Shown here one piece after another: positions 8,336 to 28,043 of a DNA stretch of 32,002 nt. The notes beneath the pieces were generated by a model. It saw only the letters and a list, made by a program, of their open reading frames with translations. It did not search any database and was not told the DNA's origin. Both the position numbers and the translations under genes were made by a program. Every line of letters begins with the position of its first letter. The first letter of the stretch is position 1. The DNA comes from a virus, in IMG/VR virus record IMGVR_UViG_3300017917_003083, positions 1-32,002 of that record. One strand, written 5' to 3'.

Positions 8336-8354
8336 AACAAATTTGGTTGTTTTT
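8334..8354 (+). terminator. Weak AT-rich terminator-like hairpin
   Basis: AAAACAA (8334-8340) pairs with TTGTTTT (8347-8353) around an ATTTGG loop, right after the stop of the small cysteine protein. The stem is only seven mostly A/T pairs, so termination would be weak. The loop also holds the TTTG of the promoter downstream. Confidence 0.35.
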
Positions 8355-8373
8355 CAAACTTATTGTATATTTA
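8342..8373 (+). promoter_or_regulatory. Bacteroidota-type promoter (TTTG-N20-TATATTTA)
   Basis: TTTG at 8342-8345, exactly 20 bases, then TATATTTA at 8366-8373, with the next ATG at 8401. Spacing and sequences match the -33/-7 pattern of the Bacteroidota housekeeping sigma factor. The stretch from the -7 box on, TATATTTATATATATAAAAT, is identical over 20 bases to the one before the gp26-like gene. Confidence 0.6.
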
Positions 8374-12012: not shown

Positions 12013-12034
12013 TCTAGAAATAACACAACTATTA

Positions 12035-12063
12035 AGAGCCGTCCATTTGGACGGCTTTTTTTA
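12035..12063 (+). terminator. Strong Rho-independent terminator after the tube gene
   Basis: AGCCGTCC (12037-12044) pairs perfectly with GGACGGCT (12049-12056) around ATTT, followed by six more Ts. It stops tube-gene transcription. The loop region also contains the TTTG of the next promoter. Confidence 0.92.
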
Positions 12064-12077
12064 TCTTCGTATATTTA
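12046..12077 (+). promoter_or_regulatory. Promoter of the gp26-like gene, embedded in a terminator
   Basis: TTTG at 12046-12049, exactly 20 bases, TATATTTA at 12070-12077, ATG at 12102. The TTTG spans the loop and first stem base of the preceding terminator hairpin, so one short stretch both ends one transcript and starts the next. Confidence 0.6.
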
Positions 12078-22181: not shown

Positions 22182-25100
22182 ATGTATATTTCACCATCAC
22201 AAATAGTAGAAGTAGGGTATGACCAAGGATACCGATTTGTTCTGGCTTATAACCAAGAATATTACACTGGATTTTATCATAAAGATGTATTCGGAAGATA
22301 TTGGACTGGACAAGAACATACTGTATCATCTATTTTATTAAATGATACATTACCCCCTCCACCTGCTGATTATAATGATCCTAATAATATAGTTAAAAAC
22401 ACAGTATTTACTCAAACATTTACTGATCGTTACAATATAGATTTATCAGCACCATTATTAAATGGTGATTTTATAGAACCAACTACAGAAGACTATAATA
22501 AAGGATATTTTATTCGTTATGTAGCTAAGTTAAAAACTTCTGAACAACCATATATAGTAGAATTAAATTATAATAACTACATTACTTTCTCTAGAGATAG
22601 ACAATCAGTTATTTATTATGATTTTATTTCATTACCATGGATGTTAGTAGGACCTGAAACTGATGTTTACAATGGTAATATAAAAATATTATCTGGAATT
22701 GTAGATACTAATTTAAGATCAATACAACAAGCTTCATTAGTTATTCCTGAGTTAACATCATATTTTACTGATTTAACTCAATATGCTCAAATAACAAATT
22801 ATAATAACATTATTGGAGAAGGTGATCCAACATACACTGCTCCTCTTAATGCTTCTGATCCAGGAGCTTATGTTCGAGTAATGGATACTGCTCCTTCATT
22901 AGCAGCATCGTTAACTCCTTCAGTTAGTATAACACCAACAATATCAATTACACCTAGTGAAACACCATCAATAAGTGCTACACCATCTATAAGTGTAACT
23001 CCTTCTATTAGTATATCTAATACACCTAGTATTACACCAAGTATTTCAATTAGTAATACACCTAGTTTAACACCAAGCATAAGTGTGACACCTAGTATTA
23101 GTATATCTAATACTCCAAGTATAACGCCTTCTATTTCTATTAGTAATACACCAAGTGAGACACCAAGTGTAACTCCAAGTATTTCTATAAGTAATACTCC
23201 AAGTACTACTCCTAGTATTAGTATTTCAAACACACCAAGTGTAACTCCTTCAATTAGTATTAGCGCTACACCTTCAATAAGTGTAACACCTAGTATTTCA
23301 ATTAGTAATACACCTAGTTTAACACCAAGTATAAGTGTAACACCTAGTATTAGTATTTCAAATACACCTAGTGCTACACCATCTATTAGTATAAGTGCTA
23401 CACCAAGTGAAACACCAAGTATAAGTGTTACACCTTCAATATCTATAAGTAACACACCAAGTGCTACTCCAAGTATTAGTGTAAGTAATACACCAAGTAT
23501 AACTCCAAGTATTAGTATCACACCAACAGTGACACCTACTTCTACACCAAGTATGACTCCATCTACATCTAATCCTTTAGATGGTGAATATTATGGTATA
23601 GCTGATACAGCTTATGCTGCTTGTTTTGGTCCAACAACATCTATATTAGTTTACGATGCTGACCAGCCATTAGAAATAGGTGAATTCCTATATCAGGTAC
23701 CAGCTGGAACTGATACTTGGACAATAGCTGAAATTCAAGCTTTAGTAGGTAGCTCAGCTACAACATTCTATTTAACAGGACCTGGCATACCAGTTGGAAC
23801 TTATTTAGAAATTACTGATAATGGAGGAAGCGCTTATGTTTCTAATTCAGGAGCTTGTGTATCCCCAACTCCAACAGCTACACCTTCAATTAGTGTAACT
23901 GCAACACCATCTGTCACTCCAACTTATACTGCCACACCTAGCATCAGTATTTCAAATACACCAAGTGTAACACCAAGTATAACTCCAACATCTACTGTTA
24001 CTCCAAGTATTTCTGTTAGTAATACTCCAAGTATTACATCCACACCTAGTGTGACACCAAGTATTAGTATTTCTAGTACTCCAAGTATTACACCTTCAAT
24101 TAGTGTATCTAATACTCCAAGCTTAACACCAACAAATACAGCCACCCCTAGTGTGACACCAAGTATTAGTATAAGCAGAACACCTAGTTTAACCCCAACT
24201 AATACAGCCACACCAAGTGTGACACCTAGTATTTCAATTAGTAACACACCTAGTTTAACACCTACAAATACTGCTACACCAAGTGTAACACCAAGTATTT
24301 CTGTTAGTAGAACTCCTTCAATAACACCAAGTATTACCGCTACACCTAGTGTAACACCTTCAATAAGCATTAGTAATACTCCAAGTATAACACCTACTAA
24401 TACAGCTACTCCAAGTGTGACACCAAGTATTAGTGTAAGCAGAACACCTTCTATTACACCTACAAACACAGCTACTCCTAGTGTGACGCCTTCTATTAGT
24501 ATAAGTAGAACACCTTCTATTACACCTACTAATACAGCTACACCATCTATTACAGCTACTCCTTCTAACACAGTTACACCAAGTGTAACACCAAGTAACA
24601 CTGCTACTCCTAGTGTAACACCTACTAGAACACCTAGTGTAACCCCTAGTGTGACACCTTCAATTACAGCTACACCTAGTATAACACCTACTAGAACAGC
24701 TAGTGTTACTCCTAGTGTTACACCAAGTACTACTCCAAGTGTTACTCCTCCTGTAACACCATCACCTTCACAAGCAGCTTGTTACACATATGAAGTATCA
24801 GCTGATGATGGCACACCAAACAGAAATGCTTATGACTTTAGCTATGTAGATTGTGGTGGAACAACTAGATTTAGCTCTGTAGTTAATGGATTCCAAAGAT
24901 ATGTTTGTGCTAGAGAAAATACAGTAGATACTGATAGTCCATATATAACAATTACACAAGGTGGAGTATGTAGTCAAGATCCATCTCCTTCACCATCATT
25001 TACTTCTACACCAAGTGTAACACCTAGTATAACACCTAGTGTAACACCAGATCCAACACCATGTCCAAGTCCTTCACCAACATCAACTGATGTGTTTATA

Positions 25101-25406
25101 GATGTTTATGGACCATCACCAATGAATTGTTATCAATTCTATACATTTGCTGCTAACGCTAGTGAAGCTGTTAATACAGCTGTAGATGTAAGTATAACAT
25201 GGAATGGAGATCTTGGAGGATTTGTTCAAGGTACTATAACAATTTTTAGTGGAACAACATGTAACACTGGAGATTTCTTCACTAGTAATATAAACTGTCT
25301 TGGAGAGTTCTATTCAACAGCCAGTTGGACAATGAACCCAACATTTAATGGTAACCAAAATTACAATCCAGGAAACGCTTATACCAATGTTTTTTATCCT
25401 TGCTAA
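22182..25406 (+). CDS. Modular virion protein with long Thr-Pro-Ser repeats
   Basis: This 1074-residue protein has clear modules. Residues 1-243 are a globular N-terminal domain rich in Tyr (YISPSQIVEVGYDQGYRF), probably the virion anchor. Residues 244-463 are a first TPSISISNTPS repeat block. Residues 464-560 are a globular insert with two cysteines. Residues 561-863 are a second repeat block, largely of 22-residue units SVTPSISxSxTPSxTPTNTATP. Residues 864-933 are a second insert with four cysteines (CYTYEV, DCGG, VCAR, GVCS). Residues 934-969 are a short third TPS stretch. Residues 970-1074 are a C-terminal domain homologous to that of the 159-residue protein at 7856-8335. The repeats should form an extended stalk that displays the inserts and the tip. 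An adhesive or decorating fibre is the best guess. The gene starts 14 bases after the hub-like gene. Confidence 0.75.
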   Translation: MYISPSQIVEVGYDQGYRFVLAYNQEYYTGFYHKDVFGRYWTGQEHTVSSILLNDTLPPPPADYNDPNNIVKNTVFTQTFTDRYNIDLSAPLLNGDFIEPTTEDYNKGYFIRYVAKLKTSEQPYIVELNYNNYITFSRDRQSVIYYDFISLPWMLVGPETDVYNGNIKILSGIVDTNLRSIQQASLVIPELTSYFTDLTQYAQITNYNNIIGEGDPTYTAPLNASDPGAYVRVMDTAPSLAASLTPSVSITPTISITPSETPSISATPSISVTPSISISNTPSITPSISISNTPSLTPSISVTPSISISNTPSITPSISISNTPSETPSVTPSISISNTPSTTPSISISNTPSVTPSISISATPSISVTPSISISNTPSLTPSISVTPSISISNTPSATPSISISATPSETPSISVTPSISISNTPSATPSISVSNTPSITPSISITPTVTPTSTPSMTPSTSNPLDGEYYGIADTAYAACFGPTTSILVYDADQPLEIGEFLYQVPAGTDTWTIAEIQALVGSSATTFYLTGPGIPVGTYLEITDNGGSAYVSNSGACVSPTPTATPSISVTATPSVTPTYTATPSISISNTPSVTPSITPTSTVTPSISVSNTPSITSTPSVTPSISISSTPSITPSISVSNTPSLTPTNTATPSVTPSISISRTPSLTPTNTATPSVTPSISISNTPSLTPTNTATPSVTPSISVSRTPSITPSITATPSVTPSISISNTPSITPTNTATPSVTPSISVSRTPSITPTNTATPSVTPSISISRTPSITPTNTATPSITATPSNTVTPSVTPSNTATPSVTPTRTPSVTPSVTPSITATPSITPTRTASVTPSVTPSTTPSVTPPVTPSPSQAACYTYEVSADDGTPNRNAYDFSYVDCGGTTRFSSVVNGFQRYVCARENTVDTDSPYITITQGGVCSQDPSPSPSFTSTPSVTPSITPSVTPDPTPCPSPSPTSTDVFIDVYGPSPMNCYQFYTFAANASEAVNTAVDVSITWNGDLGGFVQGTITIFSGTTCNTGDFFTSNINCLGEFYSTASWTMNPTFNGNQNYNPGNAYTNVFYPC
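22911..23570 (+). repeat. First Thr-Pro-Ser repeat block
   Basis: About 220 residues of TPSISISNTPS-type repeats with roughly 12-residue periodicity and some double units (TPSISVTPSISISNTPS). Codons alternate between synonymous choices (aca/act/acg, cca/cct, agt/tct/tca). The bias keeps one antisense frame open, which is an artefact. Confidence 0.92.
23862..24770 (+). repeat. Second Thr-Pro-Ser repeat block
   Basis: About 300 residues. The core is a 22-residue (66-base) unit, SVTPSISISRTPSLTPTNTATP and variants, present about six to seven times, and the block ends in shorter TPSVTPS units. It differs in period from the first block. Confidence 0.92.
24981..25088 (+). repeat. Third, short Thr-Pro-Ser stretch
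   Basis: About 36 residues (PSPSPSFTSTPSVTPSITPS ... TPCPSPSPTST) linking the second cysteine insert to the C-terminal domain. Confidence 0.8.
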
Positions 25407-25434: not shown

Positions 25435-25668
25435 ATGACAAATTATTATCTTAGACCAGGTGGTGCTTATATTAAAATAAACACAGACACTGAAGTGGTT
25501 AGTTTAGTTCTAAACATTAACACTCAAAAAACATTATCTACTATTTTTAACAATCCAGAGTATTATAACTCAACAGTGAGTGCTTCAGCCGCTTGGGAAA
25601 CAGTTAGTCAAGAAATTTATGAAGCAAACAAAACTGAAGTATTAAACTACTTAACTGGTAGTCTCTAA
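25435..25668 (+). CDS. Small protein of unknown function
   Basis: This 77-residue protein starts MTNYYLRPGGAYIKINTDTE, followed by a short strand (VVSLVLNIN) and a helical C-terminal half (AAWETVSQEIYEANKTEVLNYL). There is no signal peptide, membrane helix or cysteine. It lies between the virion repeat protein and the polymerase gene, at the border of the structural and replication regions. No family was recognised. It reads like a small single-domain protein, possibly associated with the preceding virion gene. Confidence 0.6.
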   Translation: MTNYYLRPGGAYIKINTDTEVVSLVLNINTQKTLSTIFNNPEYYNSTVSASAAWETVSQEIYEANKTEVLNYLTGSL

Positions 25669-25673
25669 AATAG

Positions 25674-25705
25674 TTTGCCTACCTAAAGTCTCTACTATAT
25701 ATTTA
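25674..25705 (+). promoter_or_regulatory. Promoter of the DNA polymerase gene
   Basis: TTTG at 25674-25677, exactly 20 bases, TATATTTA at 25698-25705; ATG at 25723. The -7 box overlaps the left arm of a long hairpin, and the expected transcription start (about 25711-25713) falls in its loop. Confidence 0.6.
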
Positions 25706-25742
25706 ACCTAATAATTAAGGTTATGTTTTATATAGTAGAGAC
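25688..25742 (+). promoter_or_regulatory. Hairpin spanning promoter and start codon of the polymerase gene
   Basis: GTCTCTACTATATA (25688-25701) is a perfect inverted repeat of TATATAGTAGAGAC (25729-25742). A nested TAACCT (25704-25709) pairs with AGGTTA (25718-25723) around an 8-base loop. The A of the ATG is in the inner stem, and codons 3-7 form the outer right arm. Confidence 0.8.
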
Positions 25743-26982
25743 AAAAGAACAACTTGAACAATTAGGCAAACCACATAGTAATAAATGTTTTGTTAATATC
25801 ATTACAACAAATGATAATCGCCATCCGTCTTTAACTAAACCATGTTTAGTATATTATCATGATGGAAATAAGGGTTATATATTACCTATAGATCATAGTG
25901 AAGCATTTAAATTAGATTGGCTCACAGTCAAACAATTCATTTACAGCTTTCAAAAAGTATTTGTTTTAGATAAAAAATATCATTTATATTTCTTATCAGG
26001 TGATAACTTAGTTGATTTAAACTTTGTTAATTATCTTGATGAGTCACAATTTGATACTAAAGTACATACTGATTTTAATCGTGAGAAATATTATATAAAT
26101 GAGTTAAATACACTCATACCAATCTCTAAACATTATGAGAAATGGGAAAAGATATATAATCATTTGTTTGATAAATTATATTTTTCTAAATGGAATGCTG
26201 ATAATGAGTTTTTAAATACTAAATACACTGAAGTATTCTATGAAATAGAAAAAAATGGTATAGGTATTGACCCACGTAAGTTTAATAAATATTTTGAAAC
26301 TACTTGGAAAGATAATTCGATTTATGGGAATACAGTTTATACACAATATAATTTATATAATTTAACTACTCGTCCTTCAAACGCATTTAATGGTGTTAAT
26401 TTCGCCGCTTTACCTAAGGACCACGCTAGGGAATCCTTTGAGCCAAATAATTATATATTTGTTGAATTTGATTACAGTGCTTATCATCCACGAATCATTG
26501 CTAAGATGATTGGTTATGAATTTGAAACAGGTGACCCATATGATGAAATACCTAAAGAAATAATGTTTCAAAACATATATGGGGGTATTAGAGATGAATA
26601 CGCTTGGTTTCCATTTTTCGCTAAGTTAAAAAAATGGTTAAATGAAAAATATCAGGACGTTTCTAAAGATGGTTTAAGTTTCCCTTCAGGAAGAAACATA
26701 TGGTTACATAACATTGAAAATCCAACACCAAATAAAATATTAAGTTATCTAATTCAGGCGCACGAAACATATTATAATACATTAACATTAAAACGTGTAT
26801 TAAAATTATTAGAAGGTAAAAAAACTAAAATAGTATTATATACATACGATTCAATTCTATTGGACGTGGCTAAGGAAGATGTTAAGACATTATTACCAAA
26901 AATTAAACAAGAACTTGAAGCTAATGGTTTTCCAACGCGTATGAGTGTAGGTGAGAATTATGGTGCTTTAATTAAAAAATAA
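25723..26982 (+). CDS. Compact family A DNA polymerase with a degenerate exonuclease domain
   Basis: This 419-residue protein is the probable replicative polymerase. Motif A is VEFDYSAYHPRIIAKMIG with metal-binding Asp250. The O-helix motif is KEIMFQNIYGG with Lys278, Phe282 and Tyr286 in Pol I spacing (K-x3-F-x3-YG), but Asp274 stands where Pol I has Arg754. Motif C is YTYDSILLDV with Asp376, where Pol I has HDE. Only about 28 residues separate motif A from the O-helix Lys, against 53 in Pol I, so the fingers are short. Residues 1-100 resemble a Pol I 3'-5' exonuclease fold (GYILPIDHSEAF aligns with AAYIPVAH), but exo I is VNII instead of DxE and exo II has lost its Asp, so proofreading looks dead. 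There is no 5' nuclease domain; a separate one is encoded at 29946-30992. The short upstream leader and hairpin suggest control of expression. Confidence 0.85.
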   Translation: MFYIVETKEQLEQLGKPHSNKCFVNIITTNDNRHPSLTKPCLVYYHDGNKGYILPIDHSEAFKLDWLTVKQFIYSFQKVFVLDKKYHLYFLSGDNLVDLNFVNYLDESQFDTKVHTDFNREKYYINELNTLIPISKHYEKWEKIYNHLFDKLYFSKWNADNEFLNTKYTEVFYEIEKNGIGIDPRKFNKYFETTWKDNSIYGNTVYTQYNLYNLTTRPSNAFNGVNFAALPKDHARESFEPNNYIFVEFDYSAYHPRIIAKMIGYEFETGDPYDEIPKEIMFQNIYGGIRDEYAWFPFFAKLKKWLNEKYQDVSKDGLSFPSGRNIWLHNIENPTPNKILSYLIQAHETYYNTLTLKRVLKLLEGKKTKIVLYTYDSILLDVAKEDVKTLLPKIKQELEANGFPTRMSVGENYGALIKK

Positions 26983-27452: not shown

Positions 27453-28010
27453 ATGACAGGTGTTACTAAAATATATCTTATAACTAACATAGATAATAAT
27501 CCTAATAAAGTCTATATAGGAAAAACCAAGAACAGTTCCCGAGAAAAAAATCATAAAGTTAAATTTGGATCTCAAATTACTTTTGACTACATTGATGAGA
27601 TTCACTCATTAGATCGTAAAGATTGGACACCATTAGAATCATATTGGATTGAACAATTTAGACAATGGGGATTTATCATAATGAATCCTAATAAGAATGG
27701 AGGTGGCGGCCCAGAATATCATAAAAAAGAAACAAAACAGAAAATAAGTGAATCTCTTTTAGGTCGTAAATTTTCAGAATTGTCTAAACAAAAAATGAGT
27801 AAAGCCGCTTCAAAACCTAAACCTATTAATTTTATTAATAAAATAAGAAAACCAGTTCTTCAATTTACTAAACAAGGTGAATTTATTAAAGAATGGGAAT
27901 CATCTAAAATAGCCGCTATATCCATGTATGGTTATTATAATGATAATATTGGAGCTTGTTGTCGTGGAGAAACTAATGTTGCTAAAGGTTTTATATGGAA
28001 GTGGAAATAA
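27453..28010 (+). CDS. Free-standing GIY-YIG homing endonuclease
   Basis: This is a 185-residue protein. The nuclease domain (about 5-85) has KIYLITN (residues 6-12) and KVYIGKTKN (19-27) as the GIY and YIG strands, with Arg30, His34, Glu62 and an Asn near 78-80 in the expected catalytic order. It is followed by a NUMOD3-type DNA-binding motif (KKETKQKISESLLGRKFSEL, from 91) and a NUMOD1/helix-turn-helix segment (PVLQFTKQGEFIKEWESSKI, from 134), as in I-TevI/I-BmoI relatives. The gene stands alone between an unknown gene and the gp32-like gene; no intron is seen. Such enzymes cut related phage genomes at a nearby site and spread by repair. The target is probably in a flanking gene, as T4 SegG targets the region of gene 32. 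Confidence 0.9.
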   Translation: MTGVTKIYLITNIDNNPNKVYIGKTKNSSREKNHKVKFGSQITFDYIDEIHSLDRKDWTPLESYWIEQFRQWGFIIMNPNKNGGGGPEYHKKETKQKISESLLGRKFSELSKQKMSKAASKPKPINFINKIRKPVLQFTKQGEFIKEWESSKIAAISMYGYYNDNIGACCRGETNVAKGFIWKWK

Positions 28011-28011
28011 G

Positions 28012-28043
28012 TTTGGTCCCTAAAAATTTTGATGCTATATTTA
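28012..28043 (+). promoter_or_regulatory. Promoter of the gp32-like gene
   Basis: TTTG at 28012-28015, exactly 20 bases, TATATTTA at 28036-28043; ATG at 28065. It starts right after the stop of the homing endonuclease gene. The -7 box continues as AT, so it belongs to the ATATTTAA class with the polymerase site. Confidence 0.6.

Follow-up and report, generated by a model that had tools for sequence, protein, structure and literature searches.

In phage T4, the genes e and soc have a promoter within the 5′ arm of a hairpin at their start region; RNAs initiated at this embedded promoter lack the 5′ arm, and the long transcripts give little translation, those of e 100-fold less (PMC3014915). The locked genes of T4 are described as late genes which are carried on early or middle transcripts (PMC3014915, PMC2988022). 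In Flavobacterium, mRNA structure tunes the initiation of translation in the absence of Shine-Dalgarno sites, and the Bacteroidetes promoter is composed of a −33 element, TTTG, and a −7 element, TANNTTTG (PMC6847099).

Here we analyse the start of a DNA polymerase gene in a viral DNA stretch of 32,002 nucleotides (IMG/VR record IMGVR_UViG_3300017917_003083), which as a whole is referred to as the window. A prediction made before any database search (the original prediction) had proposed that a hairpin hides the start codon of this gene in read-through mRNA but is missing from mRNA of the local promoter. It invoked T4 e, soc and I-TevI as well as the binding of T4 DNA polymerase to a hairpin in its own leader, and these parallels are correct and documented (PMC3014915, PMC2988022 for the locked genes; PMC3014915 for the polymerase). 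Here the gene that the T4 trick appears to guard is one for replication, and Shine-Dalgarno sites are normally lacking in this group. Our search of the open-access literature found no description of such a lock in Bacteroidota phages or of an early gene locked against late read-through.

Results

The polymerase belongs to family A and shares 34% identity with the protein annotated as ‘DNA polymerase family A’ of Flavobacterium phage immuto. The closest named phages infect Flavobacterium (34% identity), and the host of the virus is probably a member of the Bacteroidota. Genes for tail fibre, tail tube, baseplate and tape-measure proteins lie 5′ of the polymerase gene, and gp32-like, UvsX-like and 5′-3′ exonuclease genes lie 3′ of it; the polymerase gene therefore opens a replication module behind a virion module. 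We looked for a terminator between the tail genes and the polymerase gene and found none, and in nearly all relatives examined the upstream gene is likewise co-directional with no terminator found. Directly in front of the replication module, a large protein with long (TPSISISN)-like repeat runs is encoded (22182-25406), possibly an adhesin or tail fibre. A free-standing homing-endonuclease-like ORF (27453-28010; phrog_314, phrog_20162) is located between the polymerase operon and the gp32-like promoter, and no tRNA genes were found.

The AAGG in the leader is only 2 nt from the polymerase ATG, too near for a normal Shine-Dalgarno site. The conservation of the AAGGTT motif (Table 1) was assessed from unselected relatives, most of which have it immediately 5′ of the ATG; the pattern searches themselves selected on AAGGTTATG.

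Judged by its sequence, the polymerase promoter is a genuine Bacteroidetes-type promoter. The window contains four plus-strand copies of TTTG-N20-TATATTTA, with a gap of exactly 20 in 4/4: before a small ORF (8342-8373), the baseplate hub gene (12046-12077), the polymerase gene (25674-25705) and the gp32-like gene (28012-28043). Across all fetched related loci, 267 of 373 TTTG-to-TATATTTA spacings are 20. The site does not match a T4-type late promoter, with TATAAATA at −10 and no −35 element; TATATTTA is present here together with TTTG 20 nt upstream. In the numbering used for F. johnsoniae the −7 box spans −12 to −5 (PMC6847099), which sets the predicted transcription start at 25710, so that the local mRNA would lack both left arms of the hairpin; the promoter thus overlies the 5′ arm and local RNA is predicted to lose it. 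The original prediction had expected a start near 25712, 3′ of the left arms; this agrees with the start predicted here, which is nearer 25710. Timing cannot be read from the promoter sequence, because the baseplate hub gene (12046) has the same promoter type. Upstream of the hub gene, a terminator-like hairpin (GCCGTCC ATTT GGACGGC TTTTTTT; composite at 12034-12077) overlaps the −33 element, with TTTGG in the hairpin loop and 3′ arm, forming a compact terminator-promoter composite.

Table 1. Position of promoter, hairpin and gene features around the polymerase start, in window coordinates.
Feature	Position	Strand	Remarks
Outer 9-bp stem, left half	25673..25681	+	Over the −33 box; absent in L045 by inspection
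−33 element TTTG	25674..25677	+	Gap to TATATTTA exactly 20; kept before the polymerase gene in near relatives
Left arm, 14-bp stem	25688..25701	+	Promoter spacer and first half of −7 box; covaries with right arm
−7 element TATATTTA	25698..25705	+	Bacteroidetes consensus TANNTTTG with final G to A
Nested stem, left half TAACCT	25704..25709	+	Overlaps end of −7 box; 100% of cells paired in 18 same-register haplotypes
Predicted transcription start	25710	+	First base of hairpin loop, 3′ of both left arms; inferred
AAGGTT leader motif	25717..25722	+	Directly before ATG; in homologues with and without promoter
Nested stem, right half AGGTTA	25718..25723	+	Last base is the A of the ATG
Family A DNA polymerase gene, 419 aa	25723..26982	+	phrog_17, E 4e-8; conserved motifs aligned
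Right arm, 14-bp stem	25729..25742	+	Polymerase codons 3-7 (Y I V E T)
Outer 9-bp stem, right half	25763..25771	+	

The two arms, GTCTCTACTATATA and TATATAGTAGAGAC, are 100% complementary and 27 nt apart, and they enclose a nested stem of 6 bp with a loop of 8 nt (AAUAAUUA). Nowhere else does the 32 kb window contain a perfect inverted repeat of 14 nt or more with a gap of at most 60, and the mean number of such repeats in 60 dinucleotide-shuffled windows was 0.017. RNA of 25670-25760 folds with −25.1 kcal/mol (z −5.24), and none of 200 shuffles was equally stable. The 14-bp repeat and its nested stem, as well as their extent over the −7 box, the leader and the early codons, were thus found as originally predicted, with the correction that the right arm stops inside codon 7. 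An additional outer stem of 9 bp brings the fold of 25662-25782 to −34.9 kcal/mol (z −6.6). This stem is probably incidental, and it was dropped as a conserved element since L045 does not keep it. Searches against Rfam returned nothing above the gathering threshold, only two sub-threshold miRNA matches.

A stable hairpin thus covers the translation initiation region of the long RNA (z −5.2 to −6.6), in which opening of positions −15 to +18 would cost 24.5 kcal/mol, compared with 3.9 kcal/mol in the short RNA. RNA that begins 3′ of the left arms is no more structured than expected (z 0.10), in agreement with the proposal that mRNA of the local promoter, with its predicted start at 25710, would be free. 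The original prediction had placed the start codon itself in the stem and taken it as the target in place of a Shine-Dalgarno site. Here it was right about the masking of the start region and wrong about the long stem: only the A of the AUG is paired, in the nested stem, and the U and G fall within an internal loop of 5 nt that the hairpin encloses. For this reason, the accessibility of the AUG calculated from base-pair probabilities is not lower in the long RNA of the window.

For comparison, relatives were collected as 70 loci by protein search, 114 stretches by a start-region pattern and at least 119 by a promoter-plus-start pattern; all are uncultured contigs, and contigs of prokaryote genomes yielded no clear further polymerase start. 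After deduplication, the matches listed comprised 81 promoter-bearing polymerase starts and 29 promoterless ones. In a tree of the polymerase gene that excluded its first 45 bases, the window falls into a promoter-bearing clade of 38 haplotypes among the matches listed. P-values computed off the tree are weakened by the relatedness of these sequences.

Stable folds at the start are found with promoter-bearing polymerase genes (mean z −1.62, n = 81); polymerase genes without the promoter have no hairpin (+0.30, n = 29), and the means were +0.12 for other gene starts (n = 200) and −0.33 for other genes with the same promoter. The gp32-like gene downstream in the window has the same promoter and no hairpin. 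In the 38-haplotype clade, opening of −15 to +18 costs a mean of 14.7 kcal/mol in the read-through RNA versus 3.7 kcal/mol in the promoter-initiated RNA. The corresponding costs are 7.8 versus 4.8 kcal/mol for other promoter-bearing polymerases and 5.6 versus 2.9 kcal/mol for other genes, so that the long-minus-short difference amounts to 10.9 in the clade, 3.0 at other polymerase promoters and 2.6 at the same promoter before other genes. Against promoterless polymerase homologues, the read-through opening cost of the clade is 14.6 versus 6.6 kcal/mol (P 9e-12, uncorrected for kinship).

Several of these tests locate the effect in the promoter spacer. Shuffling the 20-nt promoter spacer alone abolished stability at p < 0.05 for about 30% of the 81 polymerase promoters and for 0/52 other promoters, and shuffling only the spacer core was significant for 13 of the 38 clade members and 0/43 other polymerase genes. 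Folding energies were −15.0 kcal/mol with the own spacer versus −12.5 kcal/mol with swapped spacers (P 0.0004). Moreover, of the 38 clade members, 28 have the more stable fold on the plus strand as compared with the minus strand (P 0.001), and the controls had no significant bias. A naive arm-swap pairing test yielded p 0.004, yet the gain was just 0.4 pair, as a T-rich spacer will pair with purine-rich codons in any case; the energy, spacer-shuffle, tree and opening-cost tests were used in its place.

In its exact form, the 14-bp stem is not widespread among the relatives. All 14 pairs are kept only in the window and in four haplotypes with identical arms (L093, L102, L138 and L167), and many relatives lack the stem or have mismatches in it. 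A count of G-U versus A-C mismatches carries little weight, since the outermost stem pair is often A-C. Among 18 haplotypes that use the same register, 93.6% of cells are paired and 14 cells carry double changes, versus 5.2 expected (0/500 shuffles); slid-partner controls destroyed this covariation (0-7 double-change cells). Examples are changes from C-G to U-A at columns 18-59 and 13-64 and from U-A to G-C at 16-61 (L044). Since relatedness inflates double-change counts, covariation was also simulated on the polymerase tree, which gave 48 paired cells versus 38.4 expected at the three informative left-arm columns (P ~0.0005, approximate, under a recombination-free model); the independent change events on the tree are few, below the need of a sign test. 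Covariation of the arms, proposed originally as a check, was thus found among same-register members. L078 and L093 have near-identical polymerase genes, and the left arm of L093 differs at three sites, all toward perfect complementarity; this difference may have arisen by templated quasi-palindrome correction or by recombination.

Clade members reach a high opening cost by at least three pairing registers. In L114, L116, L128, L135 and L108 the leader sequence TAAAGCATAAT pairs with GTTATGTTTTA, which puts the AUG into a stem, and in L084, L115 and L037 the spacer and −7 box pair with the leader up to AAGGTT. The kept feature is therefore the cost of opening the start region, achieved via differing pairings and only in the clade of about 38 haplotypes. 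Loss of the repeat without compensation in related phages had been named in advance as the finding that would speak against the proposal: the exact stem is indeed often lost with no compensation base by base, so that this objection applies in part, but the opening cost is kept. Outside this clade, to which conserved or covarying structure is confined, the hairpin is absent even where the promoter is the same, the upstream genes are co-directional and no terminator was found; the lock is therefore a lineage feature and not a general need. Neither a terminator nor an antisense gene predicted which clades bear the hairpin. Recombination among phages could move the promoter and start region jointly. 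In more distant relatives, a GGCTCCC-ATA-GGGAGCC hairpin is located just 5′ of the polymerase gene (L047, 2412-2429, and at the same place in L050, L051 and L063), possibly a terminator that insulates the polymerase by another route.

Discussion

Our analysis points to a conditional translation lock with an embedded promoter, of the T4 e, soc and I-TevI kind, as the best explanation, and we consider it probable. RNA entering from the tail-gene module would carry the promoter sequence as RNA, which could pair with the leader and first codons; the resulting hairpin, of about −25 kcal/mol, would bury the site where the ribosome lands and presumably reduce ribosome binding. Transcripts from the local promoter, predicted to begin at 25710, would lack the left arms and have an open start region, so that polymerase would be made only upon firing of its own promoter. 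The purpose may be to keep a replication gene off in virion-gene transcripts. The central claim of the original prediction, a start masked in read-through RNA and free in local mRNA, fits all of the computed features: the promoter and the position of its predicted start, the restriction of the hairpin to promoter-bearing genes, the spacer dependence, the covariation and the plus-strand preference.

The repeat could instead be a functionless by-product of replication, in which template switching (quasi-palindrome correction) copied the coding arm into a loosely constrained spacer. The three changes in L093 relative to L078 and the perfect arms in the window and four relatives look like its products. 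Template switching yields perfect Watson-Crick arms, however, whereas many clade members owe their stability to G-U pairs and other registers; it also leaves unexplained why none of 52 other promoters of this type shows the effect and why the fold prefers the plus strand. We regard this explanation as unlikely, although template switching may be the origin of the perfect arms, with selection keeping their stability.

An autoregulatory operator bound by the polymerase, like the T4 gp43 leader, would fit the location of the hairpin at a DNA polymerase start as well as the nested stem and loop, which is paired in 18/18 same-register sequences. It seems quite unlikely to us, since the position differs from that of the gp43 operator, the nested hairpin could not form in the own-promoter mRNA with its predicted start, and other registers do not keep the stem and loop; furthermore, this polymerase is of family A and T4 gp43 of family B. 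We think it very unlikely that the hairpin is a processing or stability element on read-through mRNA, such as an RNase III site separating tail and replication transcripts. The hairpin is long and stable, belongs to the plus strand, lies where two gene modules meet and forms only in read-through RNA, all of which would suit such a role, but typical RNase III sites have longer stems, and other registers still centre their pairing on the leader and start region, which processing would not need. Least credible is a role of the repeat as DNA, as the binding site of a dimeric protein that represses or activates the polymerase promoter: the perfect dyad does flank the −7 box and start site, but among close relatives the arms vary in sequence, register and spacing and yet still pair as plus-strand RNA, other same-type promoters have no dyad, and the strand asymmetry disfavours a DNA operator or cruciform, which also makes the protein-binding alternative of the original prediction less likely.

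If the translation lock holds, it is a regulatory RNA that conserves its function but not its base pairs, a kind for which ordinary covariation searches would mostly fail. The gene content suggests that its timing is reversed relative to T4, with a replication gene guarded against virion-gene read-through. The full form of this reading, an early or middle replication gene kept silent on late virion RNAs of a Bacteroidota phage without Shine-Dalgarno sites, by masking of the start-codon region with a barrier that is conserved while the pairs that form it have been remade, in three or more registers inside a single clade, is a serious possibility which we advance only tentatively. If true, it suggests that the lock device is workable in either temporal direction.

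Similar arrangements exist in the transposase genes of IS10, IS50 and IS200, in which an inverted repeat folds over the initiation site in read-through RNA alone and the own promoter starts inside it; they belong to transposon ends and not to a phage replication gene. Like T4 e (lysozyme) and soc, the locus has a promoter placed within the 5′ arm of a hairpin that spans the start region (PMC3014915). The parallel drawn by the original prediction apparently does not extend to timing: in T4, early long read-through RNAs carry the locked late genes, whereas here a replication gene lies behind tail genes; moreover, T4 hides a Shine-Dalgarno site, and promoter type, host and gene are different. In T4 I-TevI, I-TevII, I-TevIII and segB and Aeh1 mobE, the hairpin likewise forms only on upstream-promoter RNAs and the local promoter truncates it (PMC2988022), but these are homing endonuclease genes with late promoters and a consensus Shine-Dalgarno site ~8 nt 5′ of the AUG. 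The T4/RB69 gp43 translational operator, too, is a hairpin in RNA close to where a phage DNA polymerase gene begins; it lies ~40 bases upstream, is bound by the polymerase (PMC3014915), belongs to a family B gene and has no embedded promoter. If our preferred explanation of a translation lock is true, a control known from T4 late genes and their Shine-Dalgarno sites extends to the DNA polymerase gene of a Bacteroidota phage lineage without Shine-Dalgarno pairing.
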